A stretch of 64,000 nucleotides of DNA from assembly GCA_947627215.1 (NCBI GenBank), contig CANQVD010000007.1, forward strand, positions 62,001 through 126,000, read 5' to 3'. Below are positions 12,264 through 22,236 of the stretch, piece after piece. Under the pieces are notes generated by a model, which saw only the letters and a program-made list of their open reading frames with translations, was not told the origin of the DNA and did no database searches. Numbering within the stretch: the stretch's first letter is position 1; every line of letters starts with the position of its first letter. A program made the position numbers and the translations under genes. This DNA comes from an uncultured Eisenbergiella sp. (GTDB taxonomy: Bacteria > Bacillota > Clostridia > Lachnospirales > Lachnospiraceae).

Positions 12264-13007
12264 ATGCGATACGAGGAATTTACCATAGAGGGGCGCAACG
12301 CCGTGCTGGAAGCGTACAGGGCGGGACGTCCCATTGACCGTCTGTTTTTGCTGGACGGCTGTCAGGACGGCCCCATCATGTCGATCCGCCGGGAGGCCGG
12401 GAAAAAGGGCACGCCTGTGAAATACGTGAGCCGGGAACGGCTGGATCAGATTTCCGGGACCGGGAAGCATCAGGGCGTCATCGCCTATGCCGCCGCCTAT
12501 GCGTATGCGGAGGTTTCCGAGATCCTGGATGCCGCCGGGAAAAAGGGAGAGGCCCCGTTCCTGATCCTGCTGGACAATATCGAGGATCCCCACAATCTGG
12601 GGGCGATCATACGGACGGCGAATCTGGCCGGCGCCCATGGGGTGATCATTCCAAGGAACCGCGCCGTCGGGCTGACCGCTGCGGTGGCGAAAACCTCCGC
12701 AGGGGCGCTAAATTATACGCCCGTGGCCCGTGTGACCAATCTGGCAAAGACGATAGAGGAACTGAAAAAAGAAGGGATCTGGTTCGTGTGCGCGGATATG
12801 GGGGGCACGCGGATGTACGATCTGAACCTTGGAGGGCCCATCGGACTGGTGATCGGCAGCGAAGGAGAGGGCGTGGGCCGTCTGGTGCGGGAAAAGTGCG
12901 ATATGACGGCATCGATCCCCATGAAGGGCGATATCGATTCCCTCAATGCTTCTGTGGCCGCGGGCGTGCTGGCCTATGAGATCGTGCGGCAGAGGCTTTT
13001 TCGGTGA
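12264..13007 (+). CDS. rlmB: 23S rRNA (guanosine-2'-O-)-methyltransferase RlmB family
   Basis: SpoU/TrmH (SPOUT) methyltransferase, SAM-dependent 2'-O-methylation of rRNA guanosine. 247 residues: N-terminal substrate-binding domain beginning YEEFTIEGRNAVLEAYR, then the trefoil-knot domain with motif 1 NIEDPHNLGAIIRTA, motif 2 IGLVIGSEGEGVGRL and motif 3 IPMKGDIDSLNASVAAGVL. It is the last gene of the cysE operon and is followed seven bases later by a strong terminator. RlmB rather than TrmH is inferred from the N-terminal domain and gene order. Confidence 0.9.
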   Translation: MRYEEFTIEGRNAVLEAYRAGRPIDRLFLLDGCQDGPIMSIRREAGKKGTPVKYVSRERLDQISGTGKHQGVIAYAAAYAYAEVSEILDAAGKKGEAPFLILLDNIEDPHNLGAIIRTANLAGAHGVIIPRNRAVGLTAAVAKTSAGALNYTPVARVTNLAKTIEELKKEGIWFVCADMGGTRMYDLNLGGPIGLVIGSEGEGVGRLVREKCDMTASIPMKGDIDSLNASVAAGVLAYEIVRQRLFR

Positions 13008-13013
13008 ATACGG

Positions 13014-13060
13014 CAGCCGCTGTGCATCCCCTTTGGGAAGAGGTACAGCGGCTGTTTTTT
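13014..13060 (+). terminator. Terminator of the cysE-cysS-mrnC-rlmB operon
   Basis: CAGCCGCTGT (13014-13023) pairs with ACAGCGGCTG (13045-13054), followed by six T. Confidence 0.93.
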
Positions 13061-13084
13061 ATATGCCAGTTGTTGGATTTTTTA

Positions 13085-13651
13085 TCAATAGCACCGTTTG
13101 CAGGCTTCCTTACCCATTTCCAGCGCCTCTTCCAGGGTCACTTCTGTCGCGCCCTCCATGCCGCTGCAGTCCGGTTTGGAGTGATATTTGGAGCCGGATT
13201 GGGAAATCCAGACAGTTTCCGCGGTGTCAGAGGTTCCGACAGAAGAAACGGTATCCTTTCCATCAGGATCGGATGATACGTCCTCCCCGCCGCCCTGGGT
13301 GACAGCCGTTCCTGTGTTGGAAACCGTACTGTCCGCTTTTTGCCCGAGAGAACCCTTCAGGGCGAGGATGACACTGATGACGGCGATGACCGCAATGAGT
13401 ATGCCGATCCATTTCTGAAAAGCGGCGCACTTGGAGGCGGACTTTCCTTTTGTTCCCTTTTTCTTCCCGCCGGAGGAAGTGGAATAGGACAGGCCCGTGC
13501 CGGGAATGCCGACGCTGGCTGTGCGTTTCCCGGAGGTATTGACCGTAAAGTGGGCGCCCTTTGTGCCGAGAGTGATGCCGGCACTCTTTTTGTTCAGGTT
13601 CACCTTGACGCCGGGGGCGACCTTAAAGCTTTTCCGAAACCTCAGTCCCAT
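13085..13651 (-). CDS. DUF4236 membrane protein with cysteine-containing C-terminal domain
   Basis: 188 residues. The N terminus MGLRFRKSFKVAPGVKVNLN and the GTGLSYS segment are typical of DUF4236, a short beta-rich domain of unknown function. One membrane helix follows (WIGILIAVIAVISVILAL, about residues 80-97), then a Ser/Thr/Gly/Asp-rich linker and an extracytoplasmic or cytoplasmic tail with KYHSKPDCSGM and CKRCY, possibly metal-binding. ATG 13651 is preferred: AGGAAAGG lies nine bases upstream, whereas it abuts the earlier ATG at 13660. It stands alone, converging on the rlmB operon. Confidence 0.75.
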   Translation of the reverse strand: MGLRFRKSFKVAPGVKVNLNKKSAGITLGTKGAHFTVNTSGKRTASVGIPGTGLSYSTSSGGKKKGTKGKSASKCAAFQKWIGILIAVIAVISVILALKGSLGQKADSTVSNTGTAVTQGGGEDVSSDPDGKDTVSSVGTSDTAETVWISQSGSKYHSKPDCSGMEGATEVTLEEALEMGKEACKRCY

Positions 13652-13733
13652 TGTGCGCATCCTTTCCTGCTGGCCGAAAATGCAGCCCTTTTATACGGAA
13701 GCTCCGTAAAAAGGGAAATGACATACGGTAAAT

Positions 13734-13768
13734 AAAAAGAATCCTTGATCTTGCAAGGATTCTTTTTA
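13734..13768 (-). terminator. Native terminator of the split tRNA-Thr gene
   Basis: Read leftward, AAGAATCCTTG and CAAGGATTCTT form an 11-bp stem (13737-13747 with 13754-13764) followed by T residues. It sits one base past the tRNA 3' end, so it was the terminator of the tRNA now cut in two. Confidence 0.85.
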
Positions 13769-13813
13769 AGCTGCTGACGGGAATCGGACCCGTGACCTCC
13801 GCACTACCAATGC
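13769..13813 (-). pseudogene. 3' half of the split tRNA-Thr(GGT), left attachment site
   Basis: Contains the anticodon loop, variable loop, T arm (ACGGG/CCCGT) and acceptor strand CAGCAGC plus discriminator T of a tRNA-Thr. Joined to the 5' half at 18900-18937 it gives exactly 73 bases with perfect acceptor pairing GCTGCTG/CAGCAGC. The 10-base shared core CTACCAATGC (plus strand) is 13804-13813. The 45-base block differs at only two positions from the end of the intact tRNA-Thr at 18791-18835. Confidence 0.9.
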
Positions 13814-14024
13814 CCGATACCGCTTTTTCTGCCTTGTCACAGCTTATTCTAAGTCGCTCTAAAGCGTTGATTTTACAAGGTTTCTCGTTATCTCTCGTCA
13901 CAACTCGTTTTCAGTCGGTCTTGTTCAGTTAACAAATTCTGAACACAAAATCTGAATACATTCTACTTCTGCCATTAGCTTATGTCAAGCATATTTAAGA
14001 TATCGAATATTGGAAAATTTAAAA

Positions 14025-14062
14025 ACCCGAGTATTGGATTGCTCCGATACCCGAGTCTTTGT
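14025..14062 (-). terminator. Possible terminator after the integrase gene
   Basis: Read leftward, GTATCGGA and TCCAATAC form an 8-bp stem (one G-U) around a 4-base loop, followed by ACTCGGG and then a T/A-rich tract. Lies 25-60 bases past the integrase stop. The gap between stem and T tract weakens the call. Confidence 0.45.
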
Positions 14063-14085
14063 TATGTTGTCCGCTTTAATAGCTG

Positions 14086-15399
14086 TTATGCTTGTTTCAG
14101 CCTTTTCTCTTGAAGAAATTCATCTATTCTGTTTGCGGCTTCTTTGTTCTGTCCATCAAAGCTGTGTGCGTAGATGTCCATTGTTGTACTGCTCTTTGCA
14201 TGACCGAGGATTTTACTAATATCTATGAGATTCATGCCTAAGTAATTAAGAAGCGTTGCGCATGAATGTCTTAATCCATGCAACGGTATTATCGGCAATT
14301 CTTCAAATCCTTTTATTTTTGCTTCGTCCTCATGATTTTTAACCCAGTCATTATAAATTCTAAGATGACGCTTGAAATACTGATATGTAGTTGACAGTCC
14401 CATTAGTTTTCCATCCCACTGTATAAACAGATTTCCGTCGCCTTTCCACTGGTCGCCAAGGCTTAAACGATACGTATTATATTCTCTGCGGTATTGTTTC
14501 AACAGTGGAAGTATTGCTTCGGGAAAAGTGACAGTACGCACTGATGTAGCTGTTTTCGGTTTTTTGATTGTAACGCCGTCCTCTGCCTTGCCAACTGCTT
14601 TTGAAATCTTGATTTCCCTTTTTTCAAAATCAATATCGCTCCAATGCAAAGCCAATGTTTCACCTTTACGAAAACCACAGTACAATGAAAGATTGAAAAA
14701 TACTTTCAGTTGTGTTGATGTCTGATGCGGTTCTTGATAATTTCCTACTTGATAGGGCTTCCCCGTATCATCTATTCTCGTATGTCCTTTGACTTCCCAT
14801 GTAAACGTAGTATCAAGCGACCTTAGAAACATTAACGACTGTTCAGGAGTAAAAAACTTCAATCCTGTTTCTTCATCATCATTTTTCGGCTTCTTAGCAT
14901 CTCTGCAAGGATTTATCTGTATCATCTGCCATCTAATCGCTGTCCGAAACATACCGCTTAATATGTTTGCTATTTTTGCGATTGAAGCATTTGCATACTT
15001 TCCAACGAGCGTTTTATAAAATGTTTCTATCAGCGGTGTTTTTATCTTTGCCACCTTATATGCCTTGAAATACGGAACAATCACATCATTTACATTACGC
15101 ACATAGTTCTCATACGTTGAATATGCTAACTCTGTTTTCATGTATGACAGCCATTTCTCCGCAAACATTTCAAATGATGTTTCCTCGCCCTCTAAATTAT
15201 CGCCATTCTTCAATCTGTCCTCAAGAGCCAGCGAATATTTTAATGCCTGCTTTTCCTGCTGTGTTGGTGTTGCGTTTTGGTCTACCTCATATGTATGTAC
15301 TTTGATATTCTGTTTTCCTTGCTTGTCCTGTCCTAAAGATACTCTGATACGGTATACAACTTTACCGCTTTTCTTAACTACTCTTTTTATTGATGCCAT
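14086..15399 (-). CDS. int: Tyrosine recombinase (integrase) of the element
   Basis: 437 residues; catalyses integration and excision at the tRNA-Thr site. N-terminal arm-binding AP2-like domain (residues 1-60, KSGKVVYRIRVSLGQDKQGK), SAM-like core-binding domain (about 70-170), C-terminal catalytic domain. All catalytic residues are present: Arg in CGFRKGETLAL, Lys in the beta-hairpin TIKKPKTATSVR, HGLRHSCATLL (His-X-X-Arg), His in LGHAKSSTTM, nucleophile Tyr in DIYAHSF. A 5'-proximal position at the left attachment site and leftward orientation are usual for such elements. Resembles Tn916-type and phage integrases of Firmicutes. Confidence 0.95.
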   Translation of the reverse strand: MASIKRVVKKSGKVVYRIRVSLGQDKQGKQNIKVHTYEVDQNATPTQQEKQALKYSLALEDRLKNGDNLEGEETSFEMFAEKWLSYMKTELAYSTYENYVRNVNDVIVPYFKAYKVAKIKTPLIETFYKTLVGKYANASIAKIANILSGMFRTAIRWQMIQINPCRDAKKPKNDDEETGLKFFTPEQSLMFLRSLDTTFTWEVKGHTRIDDTGKPYQVGNYQEPHQTSTQLKVFFNLSLYCGFRKGETLALHWSDIDFEKREIKISKAVGKAEDGVTIKKPKTATSVRTVTFPEAILPLLKQYRREYNTYRLSLGDQWKGDGNLFIQWDGKLMGLSTTYQYFKRHLRIYNDWVKNHEDEAKIKGFEELPIIPLHGLRHSCATLLNYLGMNLIDISKILGHAKSSTTMDIYAHSFDGQNKEAANRIDEFLQEKRLKQA

Positions 15400-15441
15400 T
15401 TCTTCATCTTCTCCTTTTATGTGTCGGCTTGAATATCCGAC

Positions 15442-15642
15442 CTATACTCTGATATACTCTTTGCACTCGCCTTTTTCAAATACCATGTCTGGCTTGATGT
15501 CCTGATACATCTTGCAGACACCTGGTTTTTCGTCATTCCGATATATGCAATTTCTGCATATCAGCTTGTCATTTGATACTATCGTAACAACCCATTTATC
15601 ATTTCTGCATTTTTTGTCTATCGGATTTAATTCTTTATCCAT
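15442..15642 (-). CDS. Small cysteine-rich protein, function unknown
   Basis: 66 residues beginning MDKELNPIDKKC. Five cysteines occur in KKCRND, ICRNCIYR, GVCKMY and GECKEY, a spacing that could bind one metal ion, but no known family is recognised. The ATG at 15642 is chosen because GGAGGAGG lies about five bases upstream; an ATG at 15666 would place that sequence inside the gene. It lies 42 bases upstream of the integrase in the same direction and may be co-transcribed with it. Confidence 0.65.
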   Translation of the reverse strand: MDKELNPIDKKCRNDKWVVTIVSNDKLICRNCIYRNDEKPGVCKMYQDIKPDMVFEKGECKEYIRV

Positions 15643-15666
15643 TTGCACCTCCTCCGACCGATACAA

Positions 15667-15909
15667 AACATTGACCGCTTTCCTGTTACAATTTTATTAT
15701 CCTCCAAGTTCTGAAAAATAGCACTCCGGAAAGCGGTCATTCGTTTGTCTTGTCAGCGCATCAAAAAATTATTGCTATGCGCTATCGTTTTCATATTTGC
15801 GATTTAACAAGCTTTTCGTCGTCTCTGCGATAATTTCCATGCTTGCGCTCTAAAACTCAAAATATGAATGAGATAACGCGCTTATAACTGTATGTATGCT
15901 GTTGCTGTC
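15667..15909. other. Dyad-rich non-coding region, candidate origin or control region
   Basis: No gene is supported here. Three nested inverted repeats are visible: GACCGCTTTCC (15673-15683) with GGAAAGCGGTC (15728-15738), perfect 11 bp; AGCGCAT (15755-15761) with ATGCGCT (15777-15783); and an imperfect pair of about 20 bases at 15779-15798 and 15859-15881. Such clusters are typical of rolling-circle origins or of regulatory DNA. Function is inference. Confidence 0.5.
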
Positions 15910-16176
15910 TTAGCATGAAACATTCTCTTGCCTATCCCCTGTATTGAGATACTCATAGAACTTGTCTAAATTGACAAGATATTTTCTGCCTGTCTTTACA
16001 TGAACAATTTTACCGTTCAAACACAGTTTTCTGATGAATGTATAAGATAAGCCTGTCAGCTTAGATACTTCGTCAATAGTCCTCATTCTCGGCGCGCTCA
16101 ACCGCTTTGACATATCATTGTCAGCTTTAGACGCTATATCATTTGATAATACTTTAAAATTCCTTGTAATTGCCAT
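15910..16176 (-). CDS. Excisionase-like helix-turn-helix protein
   Basis: 88 residues. The core MRTIDEVSKLTGLSYTFIRK followed by LCLNGKIVHVKTGRKYLVN is a winged-helix/MerR-like fold of the excisionase (helix-turn-helix 17) group: helix, turn, recognition helix, wing. It probably directs the integrase toward excision or regulates the element. ATG 16176 is preferred because AAAGGAG lies about seven bases upstream; a longer frame from 16299 begins with non-conserved sequence. It lies between the dyad-rich region and the replication gene. Confidence 0.8.
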   Translation of the reverse strand: MAITRNFKVLSNDIASKADNDMSKRLSAPRMRTIDEVSKLTGLSYTFIRKLCLNGKIVHVKTGRKYLVNLDKFYEYLNTGDRQENVSC

Positions 16177-16439
16177 CGCTCTGCTCCTTTCAATGAAGTA
16201 ACAGCCCAATATCCTAATGATTATGCTGTCACACAAATATATTACTGCATTTGTGCAACTGCACGCCTGACTGATAAACTTATCTATCTTGCTTGCCACT
16301 GTATTTTACTTCCCCTGTTATGTTCCATTTTTCATGCTTTGAAAACTGCTTCAAACCGTTGTAAATAGTAGCTTTTCTCTGCTTCTATAGCTTCTTCTTA
16401 ACTCTCAAAGCATGCCCTATTCTTAGGTACTTTTTTGCA

Positions 16440-17468
16440 TTAACAATTCTCGCTGAATGTCTTGATTGTTTTTAATACACCCTCTGGAATGCCAATATTT
16501 TTCTTGCGGTATTCATACAATACCCTGACACTCCTGTCATCAGCATTTTGAGATTTATACCACTTCTTTAATGCCTTTCTAAGCACTTCCATATCAGGAA
16601 TATGCGCTTTGTTCTTTGCAATCGCTTCTGAAATAGGATTGCCGTCCTCGCAATCACGCAAGCTGTCAAATATTTTCTGCAAACACCTATCAAGATACGG
16701 CTTTATATGCTTTTCAATCAATTCTTGTTTGAATACCTTTTTATATTCTTTGCATAAAGTTATGATAGCTTCTTGCGTCAATATATCGTTCAATGTCCTT
16801 TTATCGCCATACATTCTCATTAACGCTTTATCAAGAAATACAATTTCCACACGAAGCAGATTAGCCTCAACTAACGGATTGCCATTATCGTGCTGTTCGA
16901 TTGTTTTATCGTATATTTTCAAACAATATTCCTTGCGTTTCGTATAGTAACAGCTTGTTGCTATTTTATCATGGTTATCCTTTGTCTTTCGTTGCCTATG
17001 CAATACTGTTTTATCTAAAGCACATTCAAAAAGATTGATAACATCAGATGGACTTGCACCTTTCACGCATGGAAGAGTAATATTACATTCTAGCTTTGTT
17101 ACCGTAAGACCATTGATGTATTCCTCTGAATATTGCCCTTGCAAATGTCTTTTCAAATAATCGCTCATAAAGCCTATAACTTTAGACTTAATAAGCTCTA
17201 ATTTGATTGTATCAGCAACGGTCAATGGTTTTACGTTGTTCGACTTTATACAATGTACCGCATTAACATATGCCGACAATTTACCGCCGATACAACTTAT
17301 TTCTGCTATTGTTTTTCCGTCATCATTATGTATGTAATCCTCTTGCAGATATAACCGCTCTGCGCCCTCTATGCTTAACACATACTCTAAATTCATTCCG
17401 TCTAACCCCTGTTGACAATTCTTTTTTAATCTGCATCGGGAAGACTTCTGATTTTCAACTGTTTCCAT
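16440..17468 (-). CDS. Replication initiator-like protein (rolling-circle type)
   Basis: 342 residues. Segments such as LTVTKLECNITLPC, CYYTKRKEYCLKIYDKTIEQ and LLRVEIVFLDKALMRMYG resemble initiators of filamentous-phage and plasmid rolling-circle replication, which nick the origin through tyrosine; the paired Tyr in CYYTK are candidates but were not proven. The exact family was not identified. The start follows GAAAGGAAGGACA. Upstream lies a long leader with mutually exclusive-looking repeats (17500-17652). About 140 bases downstream of the stop no gene is seen before this element's control region begins beyond the excisionase gene. Confidence 0.6.
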   Translation of the reverse strand: METVENQKSSRCRLKKNCQQGLDGMNLEYVLSIEGAERLYLQEDYIHNDDGKTIAEISCIGGKLSAYVNAVHCIKSNNVKPLTVADTIKLELIKSKVIGFMSDYLKRHLQGQYSEEYINGLTVTKLECNITLPCVKGASPSDVINLFECALDKTVLHRQRKTKDNHDKIATSCYYTKRKEYCLKIYDKTIEQHDNGNPLVEANLLRVEIVFLDKALMRMYGDKRTLNDILTQEAIITLCKEYKKVFKQELIEKHIKPYLDRCLQKIFDSLRDCEDGNPISEAIAKNKAHIPDMEVLRKALKKWYKSQNADDRSVRVLYEYRKKNIGIPEGVLKTIKTFSENC

Positions 17469-17499
17469 TCATTGTCCTTCCTTTCATAGAATTGCACAC

Positions 17500-17652
17500 A
17501 AAAAAGAGAGCCAATGTCCTCTGACCGCTTTGAACAACTGTTCTTCTTAGTCAACTGACAATCTGCTCTCTCTGGAGTTTCTTTACTGTTCTAAGTTACT
17601 TGCTCTCTTTTTTGCTACTTCCCAAATATATGATAATTATACGCTTTTTCAA
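17500..17652 (-). promoter_or_regulatory. Promoter and possible attenuator leader of the replication gene
   Basis: Read leftward: -35 TTGAAA (17647-17652), 16-base spacer, -10 TATATT (17625-17630). The leader then holds AAAAAAGAGAGC (17602-17613), a middle copy AGAGAGAGC (17565-17573) and a perfect 12-base complement GCTCTCTTTTTT (17500-17511), ending in six T just before the gene. Either upstream copy could pair with the last one. Attenuation is inferred by analogy with rolling-circle plasmid rep genes. Confidence 0.5.
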
Positions 17653-17684
17653 AGAGAAAAGCAAGAGTATTTATAAATATTTTT

Positions 17685-18218
17685 TCACTCAATCTTGAAA
17701 TCTTCTGCGGGGAAATACCGTCCAAAACCATTGTTTTTCATATCCGTCTTGCTATTTGTAATATGCCCTACATCACCAAAGTCAACAGTTATCGTTTCCC
17801 ACAATTCGTCATAGTCTTTCAATTCAAGAATAGCGTCTGTGATTGATGAGGTTCTCGACAATGCCAAATCCTCTAATGAGAGAGGAGATGGGTCTGCCTT
17901 GCTGAAATCAACGTATACGCACAAATCCCCATTTTCCAGTACAACATCTGTAATTGCTTCCGTCTTACTGCTGATTGCTCCTTGAATTGCCGTTTTTACT
18001 TCTTCCACAAACTTATCTGCCGATACATCATCTGTTTGACTGTCCGAAGCTGTTTGCTCGTCTTGTGTAGCTGTCGGGGGAGTATCAGCGTTTTCCTTGT
18101 CCTTAGTTCCACCACTCCCAAAGATACCAGCCAGCACAATAATGATGATTACCCAAAACCACCACTTTTTGTAAAACGGCTTTTTTACACTGCTTTTGTC
18201 TTTCTTTTCCTTTGCCAT
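17685..18218 (-). CDS. Single-span membrane protein of the element, function unknown
   Basis: 177 residues. Short basic N terminus, one membrane helix (KKWWFWVIIIIVLAGIFG, residues about 20-37), a Thr/Asp/Gln-rich linker, then a soluble domain of about 120 residues outside the membrane. The helix lacks a signal-peptidase or lipobox motif, so it should stay anchored. Similar N termini occur in many Firmicutes mobile-element proteins. ATG 18218 follows GGAGG by nine bases; a TTG six bases upstream is less likely. Could be an entry-exclusion or stress protein, but nothing in the sequence decides this. Confidence 0.65.
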   Translation of the reverse strand: MAKEKKDKSSVKKPFYKKWWFWVIIIIVLAGIFGSGGTKDKENADTPPTATQDEQTASDSQTDDVSADKFVEEVKTAIQGAISSKTEAITDVVLENGDLCVYVDFSKADPSPLSLEDLALSRTSSITDAILELKDYDELWETITVDFGDVGHITNSKTDMKNNGFGRYFPAEDFKIE

Positions 18219-18387
18219 AGTCAACCGACCTCCATTTTCGCATTATTTTGACAAGATATATTATACGCTGTTGCAATGCAAAAGTCCATTGATATTTCAC
18301 ATCAATATTCAACTCACTTTGTGTCATAGATTAGAAGTAGCAATTCAAACTATAATGTAATTAAAACATATGGAGGTATTGTGTCAC

Positions 18388-18567
18388 ATGGAAAAATTTG
18401 TTGTTAAGCCGAAGGAAGATAAAGCCGTAACCATGACTATTCGCATAGACAGAGAATTGCAAGAGAAGTATAACGAACTCTCTGCTAAAACCAACCGTTC
18501 AAGGAATGAATTGATTGGTATGGCTCTGCAATATGCTCTTGATAACATGGAAATACAAGAGAAGTAA
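18388..18567 (+). CDS. Ribbon-helix-helix (CopG-like) regulator
   Basis: 59 residues, MEKFVVKPKEDKAVTMTIRI then a helix-turn-helix pair (ELQEKYNELSAKTNRSRNEL). The beta-strand TMTIRI and following helices are the MetJ/Arc/CopG fold, which binds DNA as a dimer. It is divergent from the membrane protein gene and probably controls replication or copy number of the element. ATG 18388 follows GGAGGT (18373-18378) by nine bases; the earlier ATG at 18370 overlaps that site. A TATAAT at 18351-18356 is a likely -10. Confidence 0.8.
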   Translation: MEKFVVKPKEDKAVTMTIRIDRELQEKYNELSAKTNRSRNELIGMALQYALDNMEIQEK

Positions 18568-18730
18568 TGCTCCTGTAAAAGCCTTGCTTTCTTTCTGCTG
18601 TATCATCAGCTTATCAGTGTTTTTTCTGTTTTGGTAACAAAATCTGAACAAATTTGGATATTCCCATTCATTCATGCTAAAAAAATACAGTGAAAAAGAA
18701 GTGAGGCATTCGTTCAATTATGCCCCACAT

Positions 18731-18778
18731 AAAATAAAGACCTTCCGAAGAACTAATCCTCGAAAAGCCTTTATTTTT
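18731..18778. terminator. Bidirectional terminator beside the intact tRNA-Thr
   Basis: AAAATAAAG (18731-18739) pairs with CTTTATTTT (18769-18777), with inner pairing between CTTCCGAAG-type and CTCGAAAAG segments. Leftward it would end the tRNA-Thr transcript 13 bases after the tRNA; rightward it would end the RHH transcript. Confidence 0.7.
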
Positions 18779-18790
18779 CAATATTTTCAG

Positions 18791-18863
18791 AGCTGCCGAC
18801 GGGAATCGGACCCGTGACCTCAGCACTACCAATGCTGCGCACTACCGACTGTGCTACGGCAGC
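18791..18863 (-). tRNA. tRNA-Thr (anticodon GGT), intact, carried at the element's right end
   Basis: 73 bases fold fully: acceptor GCTGCCG/CGGCAGC, D arm GCAC/GTGC, anticodon stem CAGCA/TGCTG with loop TTGGTAG, variable loop AGGTC, T arm ACGGG/CCCGT with loop TCCGATT, discriminator T. CCA not encoded. It differs from the split native tRNA in acceptor, D and anticodon stems but reads the same codon. The native promoter (18969-18997) lies upstream, so it can be transcribed through the 5' remnant. Confidence 0.95.
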
Positions 18864-18899
18864 ATGTCTGAACCTGTTTTTGAACTGCTGACTCTTTCC

Positions 18900-18937
18900 C
18901 TACCAATGCGACGCTCTACCGACTGAGCCACAGCAGC
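18900..18937 (-). pseudogene. 5' half of the split native tRNA-Thr(GGT), right attachment site
   Basis: Reads GCTGCTG (acceptor), D arm GCTC/GAGC, anticodon stem TCGCA and loop TTGGTAG, then breaks into GGAAAGAGTCAGCAG, which lacks the T arm. The missing 3' half is at 13769-13803. The junction core is 18900-18909. Confidence 0.9.
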
Positions 18938-18968
18938 AACTCACGGCTGTCTTTCACAACCGTGTTTT

Positions 18969-18997
18969 ATCATAACATAGGAAAAACGGGTTGTCAA
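18969..18997 (-). promoter_or_regulatory. Native tRNA-Thr promoter
   Basis: Read leftward: perfect -35 TTGACA (18992-18997), 17-base spacer, -10 TATGAT (18969-18974), 31 bases before the tRNA 5' remnant. It now drives the remnant and, 36 bases further, the element's tRNA-Thr. Confidence 0.92.
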
Positions 18998-19096
18998 CTG
19001 ATATTTTCAGGTAAATTTATCATCCGGATCCGCCGATGCCATGAGGAAAAATCTGTCTCTCCGCCGTGCCGTTCGCTGCGTTTGCTGGGGCCGCCA

Positions 19097-21940
19097 TCAG
19101 CCTTCCGGAGGGATCTCCGCGGCCTGCGCCGCGACCGCCGCGTTCTGGGCGGCCTGAAGCTGGGCGATCCGGTCGTTGATGGTGTTGATGCGCGTCTGGG
19201 CCGCTTCGGATTCCTGGCGGGCCTGCGTCTGTTCTTCCTCGGTGACGGCATTTGCCAGTCGGTTGTCGGCCTCGGTCTTTGCGATCTGCGCCTCCGCCAA
19301 CTGCTGCTGCAGGTCCGCGAAGCGCTGTTCATAAGAGCCCAGATTGACGCGCAGCTCCAGCTCCAGGCGTTGCTGTTCGATGACTTCATCCGCGCCGGGA
19401 AGCGCCATGAATTCGGCGTTGTGCGGGCAGAGCGTGGAGGCGGTGCCGTCCGCGTTCACCTGACCGGTCAGGAGGCGTTCGTTTTCCGGCAGCATCTCCA
19501 GAATGCCGTTGGTTGCAAACGGGCATTCCGGACTGGCGGGCAGATTGCTGTAGGCGCAGAGGATGCCCTGATAATGCACGTCGCAGGTTTCCATGGGGAC
19601 CGTGTCCGGCGTGAAGTATTCGGTTTTGATCTCGTTCTGCTGGATGCACAGCTCGTTGGGCAGCTTGCCGGACTTGGAGCAGACGACCTCCGCCACGATA
19701 TCGGCAGGCTGCGGAAAGGCTTTGTTTTCCAGCCCTTCGTGGACGCGGCTCATGACCTCCCGCCAGAGCTTTTTGGACAGATTGCGCTCGTCGCCCTGAC
19801 GGAGCTTGACATTGTTGTCGTAGCCGGTCCAGACGGTGCAGGTATAGTAGGGCGTAAAACCGCAGAACCACACATCGTTGTAATCGGAGGTGGTGCCGGT
19901 TTTCCCGGCGATGGACATGCCGCCGAAGTTCACGGAGGTGCCGGTGCCGGCGGGATTGGTCACCACATCCACCATGGCGCTGGTGAGCAGGAACGCGGTG
20001 GAGGGCTTGAGCACGTGGTGGCTTTCCGCCTCGGTGTTGTCCAGAATGACGTTTCCGTCGTGATCCTTGACGATGCTGTAAAGCTTGGGCTTGATATACT
20101 GGCCCTGGTTGGCGATGGTGGCATAGGCGGCGTTGAGCTCGATATTGCGGACCCCTTTTGTGATGCCGCCCAGCGCCAGGGGCTGCTTGATGTCGGTATA
20201 GGTTTTGCCGTTGATCTCCTCGCTCTCCACCAGCGTGGTGAGACCGAAGTTCAGCAGGTATTCATAGCCCAGCCGGGGCGTGATCTGGGTCAGCGCTTTG
20301 ACGGCCACCACATTGCGGGAGCGCATGATCCCTTCCCGGAACGAAAGAATACCGAGGTATTTGTTGTCCGCGTTGGCGACGGACTTCCCGTCCTCATAGT
20401 TGAACGGAGCGTCCACCTCCACATCCGCCAGCGTCATGCCGGCGCTGTCCAGCGCGGGCGCGTAGGTGGAGATGATTTTGAAGGTGGAGCCGGGCTGACG
20501 GACCGTGCCGGTGGCCCGGTTCAGTGTCCGGTTGCCCTCCTTGACGCCACGGCCGCCCACCATGGCTGCCACATAGCCGGTGGACTGATCCTGTATGGTC
20601 AGGGAGATCTGGGGCTGCGGCGTCAGGGAGACCACTTCCCCGATGATCTCCGCATCGGCGGGAAGCGCAGCGGCCTTATAATTTTCGATGGACGCATAGG
20701 CGTCATCCTGGGAGTCATAGAGCAGGTTGAAGCTGCTGTTCACGTTTTCCTGATTCCAGGTGCGGAACTGTTCCGTGCTGACGTTTGTGACCTCGCCCGC
20801 CTTATTTTTATAGGAAAGGCGATAGCTTAAAAGCCAGCGCACGCCCTCCGGGTAGTTCTCTTCATTGGAACAGACCTCGTCGCAGATCCGCTGTATTTCG
20901 GGATCCTGTGCGGAAAAGATGCTCAGGCCACCGGAGTAAAGCATGATATAGGCCTGGGTTTCCGTATAGCCTGCCGACACCAGATCGTCGATGACGGCCT
21001 CCTTCACCGCGTCGGCATAGTAGGAGTCGATGGAGGTTTCCTCCACAGCCGCGTTGGCGGTCTGAATGCGGTCATAAAGCGCTTCCGTATCCGCCTGTGC
21101 CGTGTCAAACTCGATCTGCGTGATGTAGCCCTGTTCCCTCATGTGTTCCAGAACGGTGTCGCGGCGCTTGAGATTTTCCTCCGGGTGAGTGATGGGATTG
21201 TACAGGGACGGATACTGTGTGATGCCTGCGATACAGGCGCATTCGGAGAGGTTCAGCTCCCAGACATTTTTGTTGAAATACCGCTTCGCGGCGGCCTGGA
21301 CGCCCAGCGTGTTCTGCCCCAGATTGATGGTGTTCATATACTGCTCCAGGATTTTGGATTTGTCCTGGGTGGTTTTCTCGAGCTGGATCGCCAGATACTG
21401 CTCCTGTACCTTTCGCTTGACGCTCTCGAATAGCGTCTTTTCCTGGGTCCAGGTGGTCAGGACCGTGTTTTTGATGAGCTGCTGCGTGATCGTGCTGGCA
21501 CCCTGCTTTTCCTGAAAAAGGGTGACGGCGGCCCGATACGCCGCGCGCATGATGCCTTCGATATCAATTCCGTTGTGCTTATAGAACCGTTCGTCTTCAA
21601 TGGCGACGAAAGCGTCTGCCAGGTCCTGAGGGATCTGATCCATGGTCACCGGTACCCGGTTGGAATCCTCGGCCACCAGCTTGGCGATCTGGTTGCCCTC
21701 CGTGTCATAGATAAAGGAAGAAAATCTGCTGGGGGTGGCATCCTCCAGGTTGATGGTGGGAGCGGAATCTATAATGCCCTTGAAGACGCCGATCCCTCCG
21801 CAGAAGCCGATGATCCCGATCCCCAGCAGACACACCAGAAAAGTCCTGGCGAAAAGGATCAGAAACCTGCGGCCCCAGCGCGTGGAGGAGGATTCGATCA
21901 TCTTCTTCTTCGCGGTTACGCTGTCTTTGCCGTAATTCAT
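19097..21940 (-). CDS. Class A penicillin-binding protein 1A
   Basis: Bifunctional peptidoglycan synthase, 947 residues. N-terminal cytoplasmic segment and one membrane helix (about residues 28-48), then GT51 glycosyltransferase domain with AIEDERFYKHNGID (catalytic Glu near 118), GASTITQQLIKNT and KILEQYMNTINLG; then transpeptidase domain with PGSTFKII (Ser near 484), SRNVVAVKAL and AGKTGTTSDYND (near 678). The last 110 residues are an unusual Gln/Ala/Glu-rich coiled-coil tail. ATG 21940 follows AAGGAGG; an in-frame ATG at 22003 is less likely. Monocistronic; its stop lies about 100 bases from the tRNA-Thr promoter. A weak TTTATT-N17-TAAAAT lies upstream near 22010-22045. Confidence 0.95.
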   Translation of the reverse strand: MNYGKDSVTAKKKMIESSSTRWGRRFLILFARTFLVCLLGIGIIGFCGGIGVFKGIIDSAPTINLEDATPSRFSSFIYDTEGNQIAKLVAEDSNRVPVTMDQIPQDLADAFVAIEDERFYKHNGIDIEGIMRAAYRAAVTLFQEKQGASTITQQLIKNTVLTTWTQEKTLFESVKRKVQEQYLAIQLEKTTQDKSKILEQYMNTINLGQNTLGVQAAAKRYFNKNVWELNLSECACIAGITQYPSLYNPITHPEENLKRRDTVLEHMREQGYITQIEFDTAQADTEALYDRIQTANAAVEETSIDSYYADAVKEAVIDDLVSAGYTETQAYIMLYSGGLSIFSAQDPEIQRICDEVCSNEENYPEGVRWLLSYRLSYKNKAGEVTNVSTEQFRTWNQENVNSSFNLLYDSQDDAYASIENYKAAALPADAEIIGEVVSLTPQPQISLTIQDQSTGYVAAMVGGRGVKEGNRTLNRATGTVRQPGSTFKIISTYAPALDSAGMTLADVEVDAPFNYEDGKSVANADNKYLGILSFREGIMRSRNVVAVKALTQITPRLGYEYLLNFGLTTLVESEEINGKTYTDIKQPLALGGITKGVRNIELNAAYATIANQGQYIKPKLYSIVKDHDGNVILDNTEAESHHVLKPSTAFLLTSAMVDVVTNPAGTGTSVNFGGMSIAGKTGTTSDYNDVWFCGFTPYYTCTVWTGYDNNVKLRQGDERNLSKKLWREVMSRVHEGLENKAFPQPADIVAEVVCSKSGKLPNELCIQQNEIKTEYFTPDTVPMETCDVHYQGILCAYSNLPASPECPFATNGILEMLPENERLLTGQVNADGTASTLCPHNAEFMALPGADEVIEQQRLELELRVNLGSYEQRFADLQQQLAEAQIAKTEADNRLANAVTEEEQTQARQESEAAQTRINTINDRIAQLQAAQNAAVAAQAAEIPPEG

Positions 21941-22236
21941 GCAAATATGCCTCCTTAAACGCTTCCCGCCGCACAGGGGGCGAAAAGCCCGGTTGCTCTG
22001 CAACTGTTCTTCATTTTATCAAAAAGCGATGTAAAAATAAAGGCTTTTTCTTCCATATTAATATATTATTCACAATTTTTACGCGGTTTAACCGAGCGTT
22101 TTTAACCTTTCGGGACGGGAGGCCGGGGACGGGAGCGCTTCGGCGGCGGAAAAGCGGCGCGGATTTTACTGTACAGAACGGGATTTTGATGCTAAAATAA
22201 ATAACAGCCGATACGGCGCCGCATTCGGGTGAGTGG

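Follow-up and report, generated by a model that had tools for sequence, protein, structure and literature searches.

A small Lachnospiraceae element that breaks a host tRNA-Thr(GGT) gene and probably replaces it with a complete tRNA of its own

In the window analysed here, a 64-kb stretch of DNA from an uncultured Eisenbergiella sp. of the gut-associated Lachnospiraceae, an integrative element of 5.1 kb splits a tRNA-Thr(GGT) gene within the anticodon loop. The gene set of the element includes an integrase, an excisionase and a probable rolling-circle Rep, and the locus is laid out as follows (window coordinates):

18969..18997, minus strand: probable host promoter of the native tRNA-Thr, TTGACA-17-TATGAT, 11/12 consensus, now facing the element tRNA
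18900..18937, minus strand: native tRNA-Thr(GGT) 5' half including the 10-bp core (attL), from pairing and body identity with the tRNA of congener G001
18864..18899, minus strand: spacer of 36 nt, probably a decayed tRNA 3' half, from spacer similarity scores
18790..18863, minus strand: intact element-borne tRNA-Thr(GGT), from ARAGORN, Rfam score and genome scans
18733..18775, minus strand: inverted repeat past the tRNA, a possible terminator, read by eye and resembling repeats in related elements
18370..18567, plus strand: ribbon-helix-helix/Arc-like DNA-binding protein (PF01402, 20.4 bits, just below the 20.5 cut-off)
17685..18224, minus strand: membrane-anchored protein with N-terminal matches to superinfection-exclusion families
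16440..17468, minus strand: probable Rep_trans-like rolling-circle initiator, or a relaxase-like protein
15910..16299, minus strand: excisionase-type helix-turn-helix protein (TIGR01764, above its cut-off)
15442..15666, minus strand: 74-aa protein, 96% identical in L095 and L096
14086..15399, minus strand: tyrosine integrase of 437 aa, from family matches
13804..13813, minus strand: 10-bp core at attR (anticodon loop and adjacent bases), from sequence comparison
13769..13803, minus strand: native tRNA-Thr(GGT) 3' part, from pairing of the rejoined halves

The core CTACCAATGC occurs three times across the window, once in each tRNA piece (13804-13813, 18826-18835 within the intact tRNA, and 18900-18909). 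Rejoining the two native halves on the minus strand (18937->18900 and 13803->13769) yields a 72-nt body plus discriminator, in which all positions are paired in the three stems scored, the acceptor (7/7), anticodon (5/5) and T (5/5) stems. No difference in 72 positions separates the rejoined body from the intact tRNA-Thr of G001, the kind of unbroken gene that a first-pass annotation of this DNA had proposed to seek, and the split gene with its 10-base core was as that annotation had described it. Its further claim, that the 5' remnant cannot be completed by element DNA, also held: the attL junction pairs at 3/7 acceptor, 2/5 anticodon-stem and 0/5 T-stem positions, reaches 22.1 bits vs the Rfam cut-off of 29 bits, and receives no tRNA call from ARAGORN run on the window. 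Judged by pairing and score, neither junction in the window restores tRNA-Thr(GGT). Among chimeras of 32 distinct tRNA-Thr(GGT) sequences, 72/992 (7.3%) retain all 12 acceptor and anticodon pairs and 521/992 (52.5%) lose at least three. Junction hybrids of two related elements lie above the cut-off (G012, 49.1 bits; L098, 33.4 bits) and are labelled tRNA-Pro(TGG) by ARAGORN, so that these two may keep some activity; that such hybrids came out as tRNA-Pro genes is a caution for annotators.

In all six copies with both ends known (the window, L095, L098, G286, G736 and G744, the ends of G286 and G744 lying on separate contigs), the native halves rejoin with full pairing. Precise excision should thus restore the native gene, and a host would be trapped with the element solely in the case of imprecise loss. 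The earlier suggestion that the host may be bound to the element by the insertion is therefore retained for imprecise loss and dropped for precise excision. Some of the ends seen in G012, G645 and G744 coincide with contig breaks.

The intact tRNA-Thr(GGT), called by ARAGORN at 18863->18790 with an Rfam score of 66.2 bits, sits 36 bp inside the element, downstream of the remnant, as the first-pass description had it, and differs from the native tRNA at 8/72 positions. It appears to be the only gene of its kind in its genome: 48 Rfam tRNA matches included a single Thr(GGT), the remaining called Thr genes being TGT and CGT, and a pattern scan of the assembly turned up no Thr(GGT) sequence other than the intact copy and its broken neighbour. 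The scan can miss genes (no match in 8/120 family genomes), and the assembly is a draft of 108 contigs, 97.19% complete, from which a further Thr(GGT) gene could be missing. The disrupted gene, with no second copy found in this draft, serves a codon that the host uses heavily: across seven host genes in the window ACC makes up 79/166 Thr codons, vs 4/75 in element genes. The tRNA thus suits the needs of the host, not those of the element. A consensus scan of 18700-19040 returned a single promoter-like site (shuffle mean 0.5), the TTGACA-17-TATGAT sequence at 18997->18969 upstream of the native 5' half, and none between the broken half and the intact tRNA; the same scan gave no terminator-like site, the inverted repeat at 18733..18775 included. 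The intact tRNA lies in the path of the native promoter, as had been noted, and apparently uses it.

Comparison with other hosts indicates that this tRNA travels with the element. In L095, from another host, the element is 94-96% identical in DNA to that of the window and its tRNA is identical at 72/72 positions, and the alignable flanks are 72-81% identical; the same tRNA in a near-identical element between diverged flanks argues that it belongs to the element. The L095 element tRNA also equals the tRNA of its host, which is compatible with a donor or with later conversion. In G737 a broken half, a spacer and the foreign tRNA, again with 0/72 differences from the window element tRNA, are present with no recognised element genes beside them. 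Related elements in further hosts follow the same plan with two other tRNAs; one of these two is identical in G012, L098 and G736, hosts with different native tRNA pieces. Recurrence of the plan makes chance no fair account of it.

The intact copy might be chromosomal, one member of an old tandem tRNA-Thr pair whose partner was struck by the element. The 36-nt gap between the tRNA pieces would fit a tandem pair, as would G738 and G094, in which a broken 5' half is accompanied by an intact tRNA and the stretches searched contain no recognised element genes. A GCTGCCG tRNA at the empty site had been named beforehand as a sign of a chromosomal origin, and that acceptor does occur at this site in congener G010 and in G011; there, however, it belongs to the one gene at that position, which differs from the element tRNA at 7 sites in G010 and at 8 in G011. 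The collinear empty site of G010 carries one tRNA and not the tandem pair that had likewise been named, the tRNA lies between both cores, it is unchanged in L095 despite the divergence of the flanks, and a second element tRNA is exactly common to three hosts with different native pieces. A chromosomal origin is therefore very improbable, and the first-pass proposal, a host tRNA broken by the insertion and a replacement supplied, is upheld by L095, G737 and the single-tRNA site of G010. Fusion of unrelated tRNA pieces by misassembly or mis-binning is scarcely credible: the assemblies are drafts, with the contig breaks and split G286 ends noted above, but the junction structure is repeated in separate assemblies (window, L095, L098, G286 and G736).

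An element that formerly restored its target, and now carries the extra tRNA as passenger cargo with no required role, would account for the spacer that resembles a decayed 3' half, for the well-formed 3' half still present in G012 and L098, for the 49.1-bit G012 hybrid, and for relatives that restore the gene canonically (L099, integrase 50%; G259, 38%). Yet with no other Thr(GGT) found in the window's genome and heavy ACC use by the host, the cargo is unlikely to be idle, and the scored element tRNAs are fully paired in the acceptor, anticodon and T stems. This account is improbable, though less so than the preceding two.

The carrier itself appears, from its proteins, to be a non-phage mini-element. 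No virion family was among the matches listed for the six element proteins; against 50,697 phage records the Rep protein had no match, and the integrase reached about 27% identity for the best of the matches listed. The 16440-17468 product is probably a Rep_trans-like initiator or relaxase-like protein, and a RepDE-like fold is putative. The best E-values of its family for PF02486 and PF05144 are weak (0.01 in 1/7 members and 0.0088 in 3/7), the window member matches neither, and unrelated families score equally or better (PF08748, 0.0009; PF08349, 0.0031). Integrative mobilizable elements with Rep_trans/MobT-type relaxases are small and encode an integrase and an excisionase. The present element is like them in size, integrase, excisionase and a possible Rep_trans-like protein, any relaxase role being putative.

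Taken as a whole, the locus is very probably best explained as a small integrative element that employs tRNA-dependent integration. It has a tyrosine integrase and a short attP/attB core in a host tRNA gene, neither attL nor attR of the window appears to rebuild a tRNA, and the complete tRNA of the same isotype is element-borne, as L095 indicates; unlike in canonical islands, no attP fragment restores the target in the window. The integrase would act on attP and the host's tRNA-Thr(GGT) anticodon loop, recombining the two through 7 to 10 bp of common core and disrupting the native gene at both junctions. The complete tRNA just inside attL, transcribed from the host tRNA promoter and presumably processed and charged, would then substitute for the lost, putatively essential tRNA, with precise excision expected to bring back the native gene. 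Because the element brings a whole tRNA, little match beyond the anticodon loop should be needed, and hosts with different tRNA arms would be accessible.

The ancestor was probably canonical, with a 3' half in attP. The whole tRNA may have been gained through wrong-core excision from a tandem arrangement, which is a model only, after which the redundant 3' half would have decayed. The window spacer resembles those of G286 (z 7.3) and of G012/L098 (z 3.7), the latter containing a well-formed tRNA 3' half. Direct similarity to the consensus 3' half is low (z 2.6 for the window, 1.2 for G286), and the G286 spacer finds its best alignment in the latter portion of that from G012, so that the spacers are moderate evidence for a decayed canonical 3' half. 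In the tree, G251 (Bilifractor porci, restored) and G740 (ambiguous) both fall within the clade, which leaves the order of states unfixed.

Canonical tRNA-gene islands, as treated in the Islander work, mostly restore their target by a fragment (PMC4383910). They share with this element an anticodon-centred attachment site and a tyrosine integrase, but here the fragment is decayed or mismatched. The first-pass view that usual elements restore the target thus stands for most, although whole-tRNA replacement was already published for phages: tRNA-dependent lysogeny was named and tested in the actinobacteriophages Fionnbharth, LeBron and Gaia (Guerrero-Bustamante and Hatfull, mBio 2024; PMC10865867). 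Those are full temperate phages, whereas the present element is a 5-kb Lachnospiraceae element without recognised virion genes. In Fionnbharth the tRNA gene overlaps a second phage gene and is served by a strong promoter of its own (PMC10865867), whereas the element tRNA lies at attL behind a host promoter, next to a probable 3'-half relic. Phages of Rhizobium that belong to the vTRX32-1 type are described as interrupting a host tRNA and replacing it with a whole phage-borne one (PMC8631192), and Sinorhizobium phage-related sequences as doing the same with an incoming tRNA that resembles those of other species (PMC11476347); both are phage-type and alphaproteobacterial, and the available parts of these accounts describe no decay series. 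Prophage Lj965 of Lactobacillus johnsonii, in Bacillota like this element but a prophage, is described in the Discussion of PMC10865867 as leaving the tRNA broken and carrying the gene for a cognate tRNA.

What is new is a non-phage mini-element that apparently performs whole-tRNA replacement, its spread over hosts with different native tRNAs, its apparent use of a host tRNA promoter, and spacers that point to decay from a canonical 3' half. Integration of the tRNA-dependent kind is thereby extended from temperate phages to a small Bacillota element without recognised virus genes, with a simple rationale: an anticodon-loop match alone should suffice, and tRNA arm sequence need not limit host range. 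The minimal int-attP-tRNA unit is a possible integrating vector for laboratory Clostridia. On a tentative reading, somewhat short of even likelihood, members of the family ferry complete tRNA-Thr(GGT) genes from one species to another and can displace the native gene for good. The foreign tRNA of G737 and the repeat that follows it, both persisting after element loss, would then mark a core tRNA gene acquired horizontally, and the family would record the steps by which an element with a restoring 3' half came to replace the tRNA entirely. The relation between the two integration styles was left open by the mBio 2024 paper (PMC10865867); the spacer series bears on it, running from a 3' half that is still well formed to what is probably a relic, and these steps, if true, would answer how the two are related.

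The proposal of the first-pass annotation that insertion of the element breaks a host tRNA-Thr(GGT) gene and brings a replacement describes a real feature and reads it correctly in the main. When rejoined, the host halves pair at 7/7 acceptor, 5/5 anticodon-stem, and 5/5 T-stem positions, and they are identical to the body of the intact tRNA of a congener (G001). The junction at the host 5' half (attL) pairs at 3/7, 2/5, and 0/5 of these positions, respectively.

Features of the element and its junctions
18997-18969, minus: promoter-like site, from a scan for such sites
18937-18900, minus: 5' half of tRNA-Thr(GGT), downstream of the promoter-like site
between 5' half and intact tRNA, minus: spacer, 36 nt
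18863-18790, minus: intact tRNA-Thr(GGT)
18775-18733, minus: inverted repeat, read by eye
between inverted repeat and core: element genes, the Arc-like regulator gene alone on plus
13813-13804, minus: core
13803-13769, minus: native 3' part of tRNA-Thr, host DNA next

A consensus scan found no terminator near the intact tRNA, despite the inverted repeat at 18775-18733.

In comparison among hosts, the evidence is clear that this tRNA travels together with the element. A rabbit-gut Lachnospiraceae MAG (L095; source taken from the isolate name 'Lapin') carries the window's element at 96% identity over 4259 bases and 94% over 827 in a genome scan, its alignable flanks are 72-81% identical to those of the window, and the element tRNAs show 0/72 differences. 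The joined host halves of L095 are identical to the window element tRNA, so that this lineage is a plausible donor, or else its host gene was converted afterwards. The integrase of another locus, L096, is identical to that of L095, and only the junction at the native 3' part (attR) is visible there. In the empty-site comparison suggested with the original claim, the congener G010 has rlmB, the DUF4236 gene, a single tRNA-Thr, and PBP arranged as in the window, which makes this a collinear empty site with no tandem pair. A single tRNA-Thr was also present in the stretch read of four further congeners, which are less clean cases: collinearity of G008 is limited to the PBP side by a contig end, the PBP-tRNA block of G011 is inverted relative to rlmB, and the tRNA of G001 and G006 lies between rlmB and PBP on the opposite strand. 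The tRNA-Thr strand in this interval is opposite in G001, G006, and L095 (L026, L030, L095) to that in the window (12264-22003) and G010; the tRNA block has flipped within the rlmB-PBP neighbourhood.

The suggested count of Thr(GGT) genes also agreed with replacement. An Rfam model search gave 48 tRNA matches in the window's own genome, and ARAGORN, applied to the Rfam-located places, called the Thr anticodons TGT and CGT and a single GGT, which is that of the element tRNA; it left uncalled two matches cut off by the ends of contigs C28 and C57. At zero mismatches, a Thr(GGT) D-arm and loop pattern had no matches beyond the broken 5' half and the intact tRNA, here and in four other genomes (G012, G286, G644, G646); it matched 0 times in G645 and once in Bilifractor porci (G251), whose family the window's genome shares, placing the host in Lachnospiraceae. 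The pattern is incomplete, giving 0 matches in 8/120 family genomes. The GGT anticodon is the main reader of ACC, which accounts for 79/166 Thr codons in seven window host genes and 4/75 in element genes.

Related elements recur in other hosts. In L098 and G012, differing host 5' halves are followed by a 3' half that is well formed, by a spacer, and by a second element tRNA (GCTACCTTGG...); G736 has the same second tRNA (0/72 differences) with another spacer, G286 has a third, and in G744, where the two host halves are present, a contig end cuts the first tRNA short after its start. Both ends are known in six copies, including G286 and G744, whose ends lie on different contigs; the native halves of 6/6 pair fully when rejoined, and the attL junctions of these six retain 2-5 of 7 acceptor and 1-3 of 5 anticodon-stem pairs. 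The G012 junction has 7/7 and 2/5 such pairs and scores 49.1 bits, that of L098 scores 33.4 bits, and their intact tRNAs 66.9 bits. ARAGORN called both junction hybrids (L025:1832-1907 in G012; 5159-5234 in L098) tRNA-Pro(TGG), by which tRNA counts may be inflated. A pattern of 5' half plus intact tRNA occurred in 3/397 family genomes (the window's own, G286, and G094).

Several further loci were observed. An IMG/VR contig (L177, ~12890-13127) contains two identical copies of a tRNA-Thr 5' half and spacer, then an intact tRNA-Thr(GGT); these may have been left by repeated integration or by excision from a wrong core, or may reflect a repeat in the assembly. In G049 (L173:5584-5810), an intact tRNA-Thr(GGT) is preceded, at a distance of 148 bp, by a tRNA-Thr whose start is normal but whose T arm and 3' end are not properly formed. 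The window's genome encodes a second tyrosine integrase, 36% identical, beside tRNA-Pro(CGG) (L083, G000:C11:5595-7091). Very similar 58% integrases occur in three genera of two families (L075, L076, L093), with the same neighbours in two; a tRNA-Thr site was not found at these three loci.

Chimeras cut in the anticodon loop were built from 32 distinct family tRNA-Thr(GGT) sequences, two of which (G012, G094) are replacement-type copies. All 12 acceptor and anticodon pairs were kept in 72/992, and at least three were lost in 521/992 (52.5%), so in a new host a 3' half supplied by the element would frequently not work, in contrast to a complete tRNA. The loop reads TTGGTAA or TTGGTAG in 32/32, although the pattern used to retrieve most of the set partly fixed the places of 20 of these bases, and the attL/attR overlap in L098, G286, and G736 is TTGGTAG only. 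We infer that the need to match mainly the loop explains the host range.

Relatives L099 (integrase 50%) and G259 (38%) show canonical gene restoration, and in G012 and L098 the 3' half ahead of the complete tRNA is well formed but mismatched. Likeness between the spacers of the window and G286 was z 7.3; G012/L098 3'-half spacer likeness was z 3.7 for the window and 4.4 for G286, and likeness to a consensus 3' half was z 2.6 and 1.2, and it is with the later portion of the G012 spacer that the G286 spacer aligns best. In G251 (integrase 74%), a restored native tRNA precedes a second one that is truncated at its 5' end, which may mean that replacement reverted to restoration; at L097:3688-3830 of this genome, part of the sequence downstream of the restored tRNA-Thr is fused to the truncated one. 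The complete tRNA would have been gained first, the 3' half would then have decayed, and a later return may have occurred in G251; the spacers and the G251 pattern fit such a gain and decay without proving it. The integrase tree groups the window, L095, and G251 (support 100/99) and, at 92/94, L098, G286, G736, and G740; this topology does not establish in which order the states arose, and G740 shows no clear state.

A later stage may be represented by G737 (L206:12600-12960), in which a decayed 5' half and spacer precede a tRNA identical to that of the window element, with the repeat behind it (95% over 148 bp). The six element proteins had 0 matches in the 12.7 kb downstream, and the native 3' half was absent at the search threshold. 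On the simplest reading, G737 has shed the element and kept its foreign tRNA, possibly as a domesticated gene. G738 and G094 resemble this state, without a link to this element.

Canonical tRNA integration is described in PMC4383910 and PMC9897764. Guerrero-Bustamante and Hatfull (PMC10865867) introduced the term tRNA-dependent lysogeny, tested it by deletion and plasmids, and called its relation to canonical systems not clear; whole replacement tRNAs are described for rhizobial phages (PMC8631192, PMC11476347), and prophages without such dependence in PMC12429752. Among the open-licence matches listed, none was a non-phage or Lachnospiraceae case of tRNA-dependent integration. The mechanism is already known and the kind of carrier is new, and the arrangements seen here are suggestive of intermediate states between restoration and replacement.
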